Source: Chloroflexota bacterium
GTDB taxonomy: Bacteria; Chloroflexota; Anaerolineae; DTLA01
NCBI GenBank assembly: GCA_014360805.1
Contig: JACIWU010000017.1
Coordinates: 1 to 45,501, forward strand
Direction of reading: 5' to 3'
Length of the DNA stretch: 45,501 bases
Under the pieces are notes generated by a model. That model had not been told where the DNA came from. It made no database searches and saw only the letters and a program-made list of their open reading frames with translations. Position numbers and translations under genes: made by a program. This document shows, one piece after another, positions 19,216 through 26,338 of the stretch. Every line of letters begins with the position of its first letter. Position 1 is the first letter of the stretch.

Positions 19216-20373
19216 CTATGGAGCGAACACCCCCGCCCCGTCCGCCGCGGCGCACACGTAGATTTCGGCTTCCAGCCCCGTCTGTTCGCGATACCCCCTG
19301 CGCAACGCCGTAACGAATGCATCCACGGCATCCACCCGCACCAGGTTGACCGTGCAGCCGCCAAACCCCGCGCCCGTCAGCCGCGCGCCCAGGCATCCCA
19401 CCTGGCGGCGCGCGATCTCCACGAGCGCGTCCAGTTCGCGGCAGGAGACCTCGTAGTCGTCGCGCAGACTGGCGTGCGAGGCGTCCATCAGCGCGCCGAA
19501 GGTTTCCGCTTCGCCCCGCCGCATGGCGGCCACGGCCTGCTCGACGCGGGCGTTCTCGGTGATGACATGCCGCGCCCGTCGGTACACCACGTCGGACAGG
19601 CGAGACCGCGCCGATGCCAGCGCCGCCTCGTCCGCATCCCGCAGCGCACGAACTCCCAGCATCCTCGCCGCTTCCTCGCACTGGCTGCGCCGCTCGTTGT
19701 ACGCCGAATCCACCAGCGCGCGCTTCACCATGGAGTTGGCGACGACGATGCGGAAGTCCGCGGGCAGGGGCACGTGCCGATATTCCAGCGTGCGGCAGTC
19801 CAGGAACAGCGCGTGCCCCGCGCGCCCCAGCACCGCGACGAACTGATCCATGATGCCGCAGCGGTTGCCCACGAACGCGTTCTCGGCGCGCTGGCAGGCG
19901 AGCGCCAATTCTTCCGGCGGGAGCGTTTCCCCCGCGCTTGCCAGCAGGGCGAGTCCCGCCGCCACCTCCAGCGCCGCCGACGAGGACAGCCCCGCACCGA
20001 TAGGGACGGTACCCTGGATGACGGCATCTAGCCCGCGCAGCGCTATGCCCTTTTCCCCCAGCGCCCACGCCACGCCGCGCACGTAGTTGCTCCACGGCTC
20101 GGAAGCGTCGTTCGCGAAGTCATCCAGCGCGAACACCGACGCCTGCCCGAAGTCCAGCGACCACAGGCGCACCGTGCGATCCTCGCGGGGACGGAATGCC
20201 ATCCAGATGTCGCGGTCAATCGCCATCGGGAGCACGAAGCCATCGTTGTAGTCGGTGTGCTCGCCGATGAGATTCACCCGCCCAGGCGCGCGGGCGCACA
20301 GGACGGGCTCCGCGCCCCACTGGCGGCGGAAGGCTACGCACAGGCGTTCCGGGCGATCATCGTTCGGCGTCAT
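19216..20373 (-). CDS. galK: Galactokinase
   Basis: ATP-dependent phosphorylation of alpha-D-galactose at C1, first step of the Leloir pathway, in the cytoplasm. The 385-residue GHMP kinase has the galactokinase signature GRVNLIGEHTDYNDGFVLP (about 30-48), the ATP-binding PIGAGLSSSAALEVA loop, RCGIMDQFV with the catalytic-base Asp, and a C-terminal LTGAGFGGCTVNLV. Its ATG overlaps the 3' end of galT by 17 nt, so the two are co-translated from one mRNA. galE and galM are not in the window; conversion of UDP-galactose must rely on a gene elsewhere. Confidence 0.96.
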   Translation of the reverse strand: MTPNDDRPERLCVAFRRQWGAEPVLCARAPGRVNLIGEHTDYNDGFVLPMAIDRDIWMAFRPREDRTVRLWSLDFGQASVFALDDFANDASEPWSNYVRGVAWALGEKGIALRGLDAVIQGTVPIGAGLSSSAALEVAAGLALLASAGETLPPEELALACQRAENAFVGNRCGIMDQFVAVLGRAGHALFLDCRTLEYRHVPLPADFRIVVANSMVKRALVDSAYNERRSQCEEAARMLGVRALRDADEAALASARSRLSDVVYRRARHVITENARVEQAVAAMRRGEAETFGALMDASHASLRDDYEVSCRELDALVEIARRQVGCLGARLTGAGFGGCTVNLVRVDAVDAFVTALRRGYREQTGLEAEIYVCAAADGAGVFAP

Positions 20374-21349
20374 CTACATTCACCTCTATGGCCCGCAGGC
20401 GCGCCGCGGTCTCCTCGGGGAGCGTGTCGTTGATGAACGTGCCCGCGCCCGATTCGCAACTGGCGCGATACTTCAGTTTGTCGGCGGCTCGGTGCGGCGG
20501 GTAGAACTCCACATGGAAATGATATTCAGGGTGCGCTTGACCATCCGTCGGCCTCTGGTGCATGAGCATCATGTAGGGTAGCGAGAAGCCGAACAGGCGG
20601 TCGTACTTCATGAGCACGGTCTTCAGGATGCGCGCAAAGTCGGCGCATTCCGCGGCGGTGAATTCGGGCATGGCGCCGATGTGCCGCCGCGAGAAGATGT
20701 GCACTTCGTAGGGCCAACGGGCGAAGAACGGGACGAAGGCCGCGAATCCATCGTTCTCGACCACCATCCGCCGGCCATCCGCCCTCTCCTCCGCGAGGAT
20801 GTCGCAGAACAGGCAGCGCCCCGTTCGGGCCTCGTGCGCCGTGGCTTGCTGAATCTCGCGCTCCAACACCGGCGGGATGAATGGGAACGCGTAGATTTGC
20901 CCGTGCGGGTGGTGCAGGGTAACGCCGATGTCCTCGCCCTTGTTCTCAAAGATCAGCACGTACTGCACATAGGGCAGGTTGCCCAATTCGGTATAGCGGT
21001 CCGTCCAGACCCGCACGAGTTTCTCGTACTGGCTCAACGGCAGTTGCGCCAGCGTCGTATCGTGCCGAGGCGTGTACAACACAACCTCACAGACGCCCTG
21101 GGCCGGCCGCACCGGATACAAATCCGTTGCCGACACCGAAGGCGCGGGCGGCGCGGAAAAGAACGTCGGGAACCTGTTCTCAAACACGGCCACATCGTAG
21201 TCGGGAAATGGCACCTCACTTTCAAAGCCGCCGGGTTTTGTCGGGCACAGGGGGCAATGGTCCGGGGGCGGCAGGAAAGTGCGCTCTTGCCGGTGGGTCG
21301 CCGTAACGACCCATTCTCCCAACAACGGGTTCCATCTCATTTCGGACAT
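20357..21349 (-). CDS. galT: Galactose-1-phosphate uridylyltransferase
   Basis: Exchanges UMP between UDP-glucose and galactose-1-phosphate through a uridylyl-histidine intermediate. The 330-residue HIT-superfamily protein has N-terminal MRWNPLLGEWVVTATHRQER, the zinc-type CPLC, NRFPTF, the active-site HHPHGQIYAFPFIPP with the HPH nucleophile region, a second CLFC pair, and C-terminal EYHFHVEFYPPHR. GAGGAG lies 6 nt before ATG. It is the first gene of a galT-galK operon. The upstream region (21350-21676) is the AT-rich, DnaA-box-rich segment, so its promoter (a TATAAA-like box on the minus strand near 21430) lies within that element. Confidence 0.96.
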   Translation of the reverse strand: MSEMRWNPLLGEWVVTATHRQERTFLPPPDHCPLCPTKPGGFESEVPFPDYDVAVFENRFPTFFSAPPAPSVSATDLYPVRPAQGVCEVVLYTPRHDTTLAQLPLSQYEKLVRVWTDRYTELGNLPYVQYVLIFENKGEDIGVTLHHPHGQIYAFPFIPPVLEREIQQATAHEARTGRCLFCDILAEERADGRRMVVENDGFAAFVPFFARWPYEVHIFSRRHIGAMPEFTAAECADFARILKTVLMKYDRLFGFSLPYMMLMHQRPTDGQAHPEYHFHVEFYPPHRAADKLKYRASCESGAGTFINDTLPEETAARLRAIEVNVDDAER

Positions 21350-21381: not shown

Positions 21382-21656
21382 TGTGGATGGCATTGGGAAA
21401 TAACCTTGCTTCTCCATTAAGTTTGTATTTTATAGCCGCCGTAGTTGCAGGCTTGTGGACATGTGGAAAACTGCCGTTCTTCGGCCTTGTTGTAGTGAAG
21501 CGCTGCCATCCCCACTAGCGGTAGTGTCTTGTGTGCGCGGCGTGCCGGGGGACAAGTTGTGGACAGGGCCAGAACCATCCGTGCGCCGCCGCCCGAGATG
21601 CGCGCCGAGTGCGGGTTTTGTGGATGACGGTGGATATCTTTCGCGGGTTATCCACA
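21382..21656. other. Candidate replication origin: DnaA-box cluster with AT-rich stretch
   Basis: Intergenic 21350-21676 holds no gene. It contains a perfect DnaA box TTATCCACA (21648-21656), TTTTCCACA on the minus strand (21470-21462), and single- or double-mismatch boxes on the minus strand at 21390-21382, 21462-21454, 21566-21558, 21627-21619 and 21637-21629 (all built on TCCAC). Next to them, 21401-21436 is conspicuously AT-rich (TTAAGTTTGTATTTTATAG) for this high-GC DNA, as a duplex-unwinding element would be. dnaA and dnaN are not adjacent, and the AT-rich part may also serve the galT promoter, so the assignment is tentative. Confidence 0.5.
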
Positions 21657-21676: not shown

Positions 21677-22357
21677 TCAGCCCCCCTCCACCAGTTTGTA
21701 GCCAACGCCCCAGATGGTTTCAATGGAAACGCCGCTGGATTGAATCTTGTTGCGAACGTGGGCAACATGGACGTCCACGGTGCGGGTCTCGCCGTAGAAG
21801 TCGTAGCCCCATGCCAGTTTCAGGATTTGCTCGCGGGTAACCACCATGCCCTTGTGCTGCGCGAGGACAAGGAGCACGTCAAACTCCTTGGTGCGCATGT
21901 CCACCCGCTGGCCTCGGATGGTAACCTCGCGGCGGTGGGGGTCTATCACGAGGTCGCCGATGCGGATCGGTTCGCCCGAGTCGGAGGGACCTTTGGCGCG
22001 CCTGAGCACGGCCCGCACACGGGCGACCAACTCGTGGGGGTTGAAGGGCTTGGTGAGGTAGTCGTCGGCCCCCAGTTCCAGGCCAACGATCTTGTCCACG
22101 TCGTCGGTGCGCGCCGTCAGCATGATGATGGGCACCTGCGATGTCGCGCGGATGCGGCGGCACACCTGCCAGCCGTCCACCTTTGGCAGCATCAGGTCCA
22201 GGACGATCAGGGCGGGGTTGAGCGAAGAGGCTTTGCGAAGGGCCTCCTCGCCGTCGCCTGCGCATTCAACGGAAAACCCCTCCTTCTCCAGGTACGTGCG
22301 CACCAACCGCACGATGTTCTCCTCGTCGTCCACGACCAGGATGAGATCTGTGGCCAT
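21677..22357 (-). CDS. OmpR/PhoB-family response regulator
   Basis: A 226-residue canonical two-component regulator. The receiver (1-120) has the acidic pair VVDDEEN, phosphoacceptor Asp in IVLDLMLPKVDG, Thr of MLTAR and Lys of YLTKPFNP. The winged-helix domain (about 130-224) has VDMRTKEFDVLLVLAQHKGM, TRTVDVHVAHVRNKI and IWGVGYKL. AAGGAGG precedes ATG. No histidine kinase gene is adjacent, so it is an orphan in this window. It contrasts with the degenerate regulator at 7882-8559. Target genes cannot be told from sequence; it ends about 20 nt from the candidate origin region. Confidence 0.95.
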   Translation of the reverse strand: MATDLILVVDDEENIVRLVRTYLEKEGFSVECAGDGEEALRKASSLNPALIVLDLMLPKVDGWQVCRRIRATSQVPIIMLTARTDDVDKIVGLELGADDYLTKPFNPHELVARVRAVLRRAKGPSDSGEPIRIGDLVIDPHRREVTIRGQRVDMRTKEFDVLLVLAQHKGMVVTREQILKLAWGYDFYGETRTVDVHVAHVRNKIQSSGVSIETIWGVGYKLVEGG

Positions 22358-22522
22358 GCTGACCTCCTTGGGACAGGCTCATTTTACGGCAGTTTTCGGG
22401 ATTCATCAAAGCCGCCGCGCGAGGCGCTTCGTTTGCGCACAGAGGACGCGAAGGCCACAGGAAAGAAACCTCGCGCCTCCGTTGCCAACACAAGACCGAA
22501 ATGAATCCACCGGCTCAACCCA

Positions 22523-22551
22523 TTGCCAAATGGCCCAACTGTGTGTATAAT
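22523..22551 (+). promoter_or_regulatory. Promoter giving a probably leaderless mRNA
   Basis: TTGCCA (22523-22528), 17-nt spacer, TATAAT (22546-22551). The A of ATG 22558 is 7 nt after the -10 box, the normal start position, so the transcript would begin at the start codon. The -35 flank TTGCCAAATGG is shared with the hpf promoter. The 22358-22522 stretch shows nothing else certain. Confidence 0.75.
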
Positions 22552-22557
22552 GGGGGC

Positions 22558-23352
22558 ATGGAAGGGAAGCCGCGCGAGAAGTTCCAACCCTGGCGACCGA
22601 GGGAGACGCAGCCAGGCCGCACCGGACTGACCTGGCAGCAGATGGCGTTTCTCATCGGGATCAACGCTATCATCGCCCTGGGCATCAGCGTTGTCGTAAC
22701 GCTGACCCTGGGGCGCGCCACCCCGGCATCGCGTGCGCCTGCGCCCTCGCCCAGCCCCGTGCCGCCCGTGGAGTCGCCCGTCGCGGCGGCGGCCACGACT
22801 CCAACCCAGCCGACCACCTACACGGTGAAGCCCGGCGACAGCCTCTCGGCCATCGCGTTCCAGTTCGGCATCTCGCTCCAGGAACTCATGGCGGCAAACG
22901 ACATCACCGATCCCGATGTCCTGTTTGCCGGCCAGAAACTCGTGATCCCTGTCCCCGGCAGCATCACCCCCGTCCCGACGCCGCGCCCCACCGTCGCGCC
23001 GACGGGAGCCGCTACTCCGATACCCACCAACACCCCGCCGACCGGCCCCGATTTGCGCATAGAGTCGGTCCAGATCCTACCGGACGAGCGCGACTCATTC
23101 GCCGTGATCACCAATTGGGGCATGTGGGCGCGGTTGAAGGGCTGGACGCTGGACGACGGCCAGGGGAATGTGTTCACGTTCCCCGACCTGTCGCTGTTCC
23201 AGGGCGGCAGCGTGCGAGTGCACACGGCCGCCGGAACCAACACCGAGGTGGATCTGTATTGGGGCATCAACAAGGCGGTGTTCGTTTCGGGCCGCACGCT
23301 CACTCTGAAGGATGCCACCGGCAAGGTGGTGGCCTCGTACACGGTGCCCTAG
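22558..23352 (+). CDS. Membrane-anchored LysM and lamin-tail-domain protein
   Basis: A 264-residue type II membrane protein. About 30 cytoplasmic residues, one transmembrane helix (about 33-55, MAFLIGINAIIALGISVVVT), a Pro-rich linker, a LysM domain (about 85-132; YTVKPGDSLSAIAFQFGISL and FAGQKLVIPVPG), a Pro/Thr linker, and a C-terminal lamin-tail-like beta domain (about 160-264; LRIESVQILPDERDSFAVIT, VDLYWGINKAVFVSGRTLTL). It probably binds peptidoglycan while tethered to the membrane. The start is fixed at 22558 because the upstream in-frame ATG at 22501 lies before the promoter. There is no ribosome-binding site, consistent with leaderless initiation. Confidence 0.85.
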   Translation: MEGKPREKFQPWRPRETQPGRTGLTWQQMAFLIGINAIIALGISVVVTLTLGRATPASRAPAPSPSPVPPVESPVAAAATTPTQPTTYTVKPGDSLSAIAFQFGISLQELMAANDITDPDVLFAGQKLVIPVPGSITPVPTPRPTVAPTGAATPIPTNTPPTGPDLRIESVQILPDERDSFAVITNWGMWARLKGWTLDDGQGNVFTFPDLSLFQGGSVRVHTAAGTNTEVDLYWGINKAVFVSGRTLTLKDATGKVVASYTVP

Positions 23353-26269: not shown

Positions 26270-26297
26270 TTGACAAGAATCAAAACCGTGGTATAAT
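26270..26297 (+). promoter_or_regulatory. Promoter of the DUF2089-SHOCT operon
   Basis: Perfect TTGACA (26270-26275), 16-nt spacer, perfect TATAAT (26292-26297), in a locally AT-rich segment. One of the strongest promoters in the window. Confidence 0.85.
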
Positions 26298-26338
26298 AAT
26301 TTTGAATCACAATGTAATTCTTTTGGAGCGTGGGAATT

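Follow-up and report, generated by a model that had tools for sequence, protein, structure and literature searches.

Among the closest described systems to the locus analyzed here is the oriC of B. subtilis with its basal unwinding system (BUS; PMC6669920, PMC8287927), in which tandem DnaA boxes are followed by a short spacer, TAG triplets (3'-GAT-5' when viewed from the strand of the boxes) and then AT-rich DNA. Under the strict definition of a BUS (PMC8287927), one box has two mismatches at most and the second four at most, and at least three consecutive NAN triplets lie no more than 16 bp from a DnaA box. The oriC of Caulobacter, with its CtrA sites, is an example of an origin that carries sites for a regulator besides DnaA. 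In this organism initiation is reported to be delayed when dNTPs are elevated, independently of CtrA and by an unknown route (PMC12186491). Finally NrdR, which acts at operators of ribonucleotide-reductase genes, needs two 16-bp boxes with spacers of 14-17 or 24-27 bp (PMC12051234).

The window, i.e., the whole stretch of 45,501 nucleotides under analysis, is the entire contig C17 of a 3.24-Mb draft genome of Chloroflexota, probably of class Anaerolineae (154 contigs, ~96% completeness). An earlier note had proposed a candidate oriC in the intergenic gap that separates galT from the gene of a response regulator. The present analysis supports that proposal, and we put the probability that this gap is the chromosomal replication origin (oriC) at roughly 0.92. 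It is the best reading of the site because of the clustering of the boxes, their conservation in the genus, an unwinding-region layout shared with loci across the class, the position of some of these loci beside dnaA, and a flip of strand skew at the corresponding locus of a closed genome; the dnaA region of the window genome, which is free of box clusters, agrees with it.

The galT/response-regulator gap

The left flank of the gap is galT (20357..21349, minus strand; Pfam GalP_UDP_transf, 2.6e-34), transcribed away from the putative origin, and the right flank encodes an OmpR-type response regulator (21677..22357, minus strand; Pfam Response_reg, 2.9e-32, and Trans_reg_C, 2e-24) transcribed towards it. 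The gap measures 327 bp, in line with the ~330 bp given previously. The dnaA gene of this genome is on a different contig (C47), where a scan of the dnaA region for box clusters found none, and a dnaA-adjacent origin was rejected for want of such a cluster. No parS sites beyond chance were detected in the window. A LysM+LTD protein is encoded at 22501-23352 (plus strand), ~0.85 kb from the distal DnaA box.

Six boxes or near-boxes on the minus strand of the gap are opposed by one perfect box on the plus strand. The tandem boxes ATGTCCACA and TTTTCCACA (21454..21470, minus strand) point at the AT-rich stretch and the triplet array described below; ATGTCCACA starts at 21454 and TTTTCCACA spans 21462-21470, so that the two overlap. 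Further to the right are the box CTGTCCACA (21558..21566, minus strand) and the near-boxes TCATCCACA (21619-21627) and ATATCCACC (21629-21637), which together occupy 21619..21637 on the minus strand. The perfect box TTATCCACA (21648..21656, plus strand) forms the distal end and is opposed to all the others. Beyond the AT-rich stretch, and ~30 bp ahead of galT, is a weak box, CCATCCACA (21382..21390, minus strand). Every box element listed in the earlier note was recovered at its position, including TTATCCACA and TTTTCCACA, and what it had described as nearly uniform orientation of the near-boxes proved complete, all five being on the minus strand.

The weighted box-cluster score of the gap is 31.1, a value reached by none of 200 first-order Markov resamples of the window, which served as the chance model (maximum 19.6, mean 12.7, sd 2.0); the next separate box cluster in the window scores ~13. 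A cluster of boxes beyond chance, one of the features by which an oriC is recognized, is therefore present at the galT gap. The count of boxes with one mismatch over the whole window is not raised (24 found vs 19.6 expected), and the signal accordingly lies in the clustering rather than in the total. Inverted box pairs at 15-45 bp were considered as a diagnostic and rejected, because the five places at which they occur equal the number for the reversed-pattern control and are not diagnostic alone. A genome-wide scan for boxes, which had been suggested as a check, found 19 exact TTWTCCACA sites in the whole 3.24-Mb draft, and the only two within 300 bp of each other are those of the galT gap.

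The AT-rich stretch at 21401..21436 is the candidate DNA unwinding element, with 69% A+T against a window mean of 35%, and it lies beside the boxes as is expected in an oriC. Its A+T content is reached by 0.11% of the 36-mers of the window; it had been called exceptional, which is justified, but it is not unique, a richer stretch being present near 26289. The maximum for 36-mers of the window, 81%, is reached at 26278-26330, in DNA without a DnaA-box cluster. A degenerate array resembling DnaA-trios, TAG CCG CCG TAG TTG CAG, was found at 21433..21450 (plus strand), with TAG, TAG and CAG in one triplet phase. Along the box strand, TTTTCCACA is followed by the overlapping ATGTCCACA, a short spacer, the triplets (TAG... 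on the other strand) and AT-rich DNA, which is the order and polarity of parts in B. subtilis. With one mismatch to TTATCCACA in TTTTCCACA and two in ATGTCCACA, the tandem boxes are within the limits of the strict BUS definition. In contrast to B. subtilis, the triplet array of the window is interrupted and lacks three consecutive NAN triplets as defined in PMC8287927; it is therefore labelled BUS-like only. Some relatives in the class (e.g., G214 and G068) do have three or more canonical TAG repeats. Further differences from B. subtilis are that the origin is not next to dnaA and that there is a strong opposed box ~200 bp away.

By analogy with the known BUS mechanism we infer that DnaA would bind the tandem boxes at 21454-21470 together with the weaker boxes of the same orientation, and that the opposed perfect box at 21648 would bound the DnaA complex. 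A DnaA-ATP filament starting from the tandem boxes would run leftwards over the TAG-containing strand (21433-21450) and open the AT-rich DNA at 21401-21436, where the helicase would be loaded. DnaA binding, the direction of the filament, the melting site and origin activity itself are all predictions for the window site.

Conservation in the genus and across the class

The response regulator is 83% identical in the congeners G001 and G002. The box cluster is kept with its orientations in the spacer between galT and the regulator gene in both, and the intervening sequence has diverged. Galactose genes flank the gap in G002, and the contig of G001 ends nearby. The elements retained beside the congener regulator are the tandem boxes (aligned as ATTTCCACA/TTATGCACA), the box within the conserved stretch CGGGGGAYAASTTGTGGRCA, which in the window contains CTGTCCACA, the paired TGTGGA elements (the near-boxes at 21619..21637 are kept as TTGTGGAC/T and TGTGGACA), and the opposed box as GTTRTCCACAGGGA, which is invariant in the genus. 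The weak box CCATCCACA is partly kept in G002. The trio-like array is likewise present, as TAGCCGCTGTAGTCGTAG in G002 and TAGCCGTTGTAGTTGTAG in G001, and the triplets of the congeners read TAG CCG CTG TAG TCG TAG and TAG CCG TTG TAG TTG TAG. Furthermore, the cluster in the galT gap is the sole comparable non-palindromic close pair of TTRTSCACA sites in each of the two congener genomes. Conservation of the boxes in relatives, which the earlier note had named as something to look for, is thus borne out by a cluster at the corresponding location in both congeners. An oriC is expected to keep its position and layout in relatives; here the spacer is the same in both congeners and the layout is common to the class loci.

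A core pattern, GTAGNNGN{0,6}TGTGGAN{1,3}TGTG, was written from the window, one congener and a distant relative (G011), and run over 298 genomes of the class. The pattern is circular for the window and its congeners, whose class membership rests on layout and conservation rather than on the match itself. The raw number of matches over the 298 genomes is about that of a reversed-pattern control, so that most single matches mean little, and the informative subset is the core matches with box clusters. Many matches, from many other families, have the canonical core GTAGTAGGGGCTGTGGATxxTGTG, also written GTAG(TAG)GGGCTGTGGATxxTGTG, and belong to box clusters in which opposed boxes, one to three in number, follow the core at ~200-300 bp, a layout like that of the window. 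Loci inside one family are not independent. The dnaA gene adjoins the core in 10 of the 44 class loci examined (one confirmed by Pfam), and the view that an origin in this group need not be next to dnaA thus holds for many class members as well as for the window genome. Dna​A-adjacent class origins (e.g., G210, G240, G057 and G236) resemble the window in the core, the polarity of the boxes and the opposed distal boxes; they lie on the 3' side of dnaA where the orientation was read. They differ in that the response regulator of the window takes the place of dnaA. In G011, two DnaA boxes 75 bp apart (L121, G011:C1:1837471-1837554) are located just upstream of a match to the C-terminal domain of DnaA, and the core locus of this genome is 0.89 Mb away.

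Other flanks of the core vary, and include SpoVS, LTD-domain, DinG-like and TsaD-like proteins, among others. This bears on a very improbable alternative, namely that the window site is a galT-galK promoter through which DnaA, as a transcription factor, regulates galactose metabolism. A box lying ~30 bp before the start of galT, and the transcription of galT away from the cluster, would suit such a promoter. However, opposed boxes over ~275 bp, an AT-rich element and the order of an unwinding region are not needed for promoter control, and the homologous core is found elsewhere beside dnaA and the genes just listed, not beside galT. The response regulator was also rejected as a general origin marker; its orthologues in ten other class genomes (57-68% identity) have neither galT nor a core match nor a strong cluster next to them. 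A contig search with the regulator recovered only distant loci from relatives, and no core match was present in them. LTD (lamin-tail-domain) or LTD-looking proteins are encoded no more than a few kb from oriC in several families (the core flanks of G028, G212, G110, G279, G171 and G247; Pfam was run on three of these six). A protein resembling deoxynucleoside kinases of dNTP salvage, by sequence motif only, is encoded ~1.4-2 kb to the right of the core in two families (L185 and L186; G262 and G232).

Strand skew was sampled in closed genomes. In G028 the core is at 505.3 kb and dnaA at 3.07 Mb. Every sample between 100 and 440 kb has a fourfold-site T/A skew of -0.12 to -0.15, and between 497 kb and 2.3 Mb most values are positive, i.e., the skew flips at the core copy. 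Sampled skew of the closed genomes G212 and G011 gave no clean switch, and neither the window nor a 101-kb congener contig has a clear one. Skew is weak in this lineage and uninformative for the window site. Another cluster of G028 (L120; G028:C1:150326-150559) contains five exact TTWTCCACA sites of one orientation in 234 bp, and is a possible site of DnaA titration or reactivation. The existence of such additional clusters in the class (this one, at 150.3-150.6 kb, is 355 kb from the core), together with the weakness of several boxes in the window, would be compatible with the window site being a titration or reactivation site of the datA/DARS type at which no replication starts. We regard this as improbable: the window has the parts of an unwinding region in their order (tandem boxes, TAG triplets in phase, AT-rich DNA), the draft has no competing close pair of TTWTCCACA sites, homologous loci are beside dnaA in several families, and the skew of G028 flips at the core and not at the five-box cluster. 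The gap is thus best read as oriC.

NrdR-like palindromes in the class origins

When the class loci are placed side by side, 16-bp palindromes such as CCCCCATATATGGGGG recur ~36-39, 66-79, 174-186, 203-216 and 323-358 bp from the core, in the interval from the unwinding region to the distal boxes. A palindromic matrix for the NrdR box was built from 33 pairs of boxes upstream of nrdR, with no origin sequence in the training set, and its consensus is CCCCCATATATGGGGG. The nrdR gene is present in all 38 of the genomes searched. Core loci having four or more DnaA boxes were taken as box-rich; the 18 of them come from 11 families and are not phylogenetically independent. Sites of at least 12 bits are present in 17 of these 18 and in 1.2% of 997 equally long background windows (Mann-Whitney p 2e-11). 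Pairs at 30-33 bp were present in 17/18 of the box-rich loci vs 0.8% of the background; the sole box-rich locus without NrdR-like boxes is that of G262. None of 200 column-shuffled palindromic matrices performed as well (mean 5.8%, best 72%). Among the 48 close site spacings in 26 loci, 27 are 30-33 bp from start to start, and 18 of them exactly 31. The palindromes therefore show what is expected of NrdR boxes, namely a match to the boxes of their own nrdR promoters and a paired spacing with spacers of 14-17 bp.

G011 and G110 each contain a single exact copy of the 12-mer core CCCATATATGGG, which is located in oriC in both genomes. In G212, CCCATATATGGG forms pairs with a separation of 112-145 bp at four non-oriC places (G212:C1, 1429725/1429860, 2057897/2058009, 2139410/2139555 and 2296998/2297133), perhaps as part of a mobile or repeated element. 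A 16.8-bit NrdR-like box, CCCCCATATATGGGCA, is located upstream of dnaA in G028 (L098:3101-3116), where dnaA is far from oriC.

The class-origin palindromes resemble the NrdR operators of ribonucleotide-reductase genes (PMC12051234) in their nrdR-promoter consensus and in the 31-bp pairing. They differ from them in being inside oriC, mostly away from nrd genes, and in numbering up to three pairs per origin. Control of a neighbouring gene is a less likely purpose, since the neighbours vary while the boxes stay. We consider the chances about even that the class origins contain paired NrdR operators through which NrdR loaded with dATP/ATP lowers initiation at high dNTP, so that one sensor serves both expression of ribonucleotide reductase and firing of the origin, with the site decayed or retuned in the genus of the window. 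Under this proposal, NrdR tetramers on the paired boxes of the relatives would lie between the core and the distal boxes, where NrdR at high dATP could hinder the assembly of DnaA or bend the DNA; loaded with dATP/ATP, it would damp initiation in these organisms when dNTPs are plentiful.

It is possible, with a clearly lower probability, that the palindromes are sites of another protein (a different palindrome-binding regulator or an origin factor) or structural elements that share the consensus by chance. Binding of NrdR to the origin boxes is putative, being deduced from sequence. Three pairs along an origin are also further apart than in nrd promoters, and bases of the NrdR box covary between promoter and origin at position 5 only, out of the four positions compared, a modest signal (rho 0.74, p 0.004 before correction for four tests, 13 families). 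Against this, the consensus was derived from nrdR promoters alone, the 31-bp pairing corresponds to the 14-17 bp spacer that NrdR requires (PMC12051234), nrdR was found in every genome searched, and the single copies of CCCATATATGGG in G011 and G110 are each in the origin. The comparison with Caulobacter is one of principle, both origins having sites for a regulator in addition to DnaA, whereas here the suggested regulator is NrdR rather than the adjacent OmpR-type regulator. The dNTP-dependent delay described in PMC12186491 fits the NrdR proposal and does not show it. A search of open-access literature (titles, abstracts and selected passages) turned up no description of NrdR boxes in an origin, and the novelty is provisional.

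The window itself has a conserved palindrome at 21512..21527, composed of CCACTAGC and GGTAGTGT (CCACTAGCGGTAGTGT), at +71 from the GTAG of the core, which is the slot of an NrdR-like box in many class origins. G001 and G002 carry CCACTAGCCGTAGTG at the same +71. Six of the eight arm positions pair in the window, and the arms resemble the nrdR-promoter boxes of the genus itself (CCACGACACATAGTGC); the centre is GC-rich, with GC/GG in place of TA/TA. The NrdR matrix gives 5.6, 6.0 and 4.0 bits for the window, G001 and G002, values reached by 0.8%, 0.7% and 1.5% of background slots, respectively. No good partner at 31 bp was found for the window palindrome. As a firm NrdR box it was rejected, since 5.6 bits compares with 12-20 in most box-rich class origins, and the NrdR part of the window site, judged by its letters, appears to be weak or decayed.

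Implications for origins in Chloroflexota

Few origins of Chloroflexota have been characterized, and many, that of the window included, are not beside dnaA; these are therefore missed by annotation based on dnaA. The core pattern, taken together with the layout of the boxes, can serve to locate origins in draft assemblies of the class. If functional, the NrdR-like operator pairs in these origins would provide a direct mechanism coupling nucleotide supply to initiation, which is an old question.
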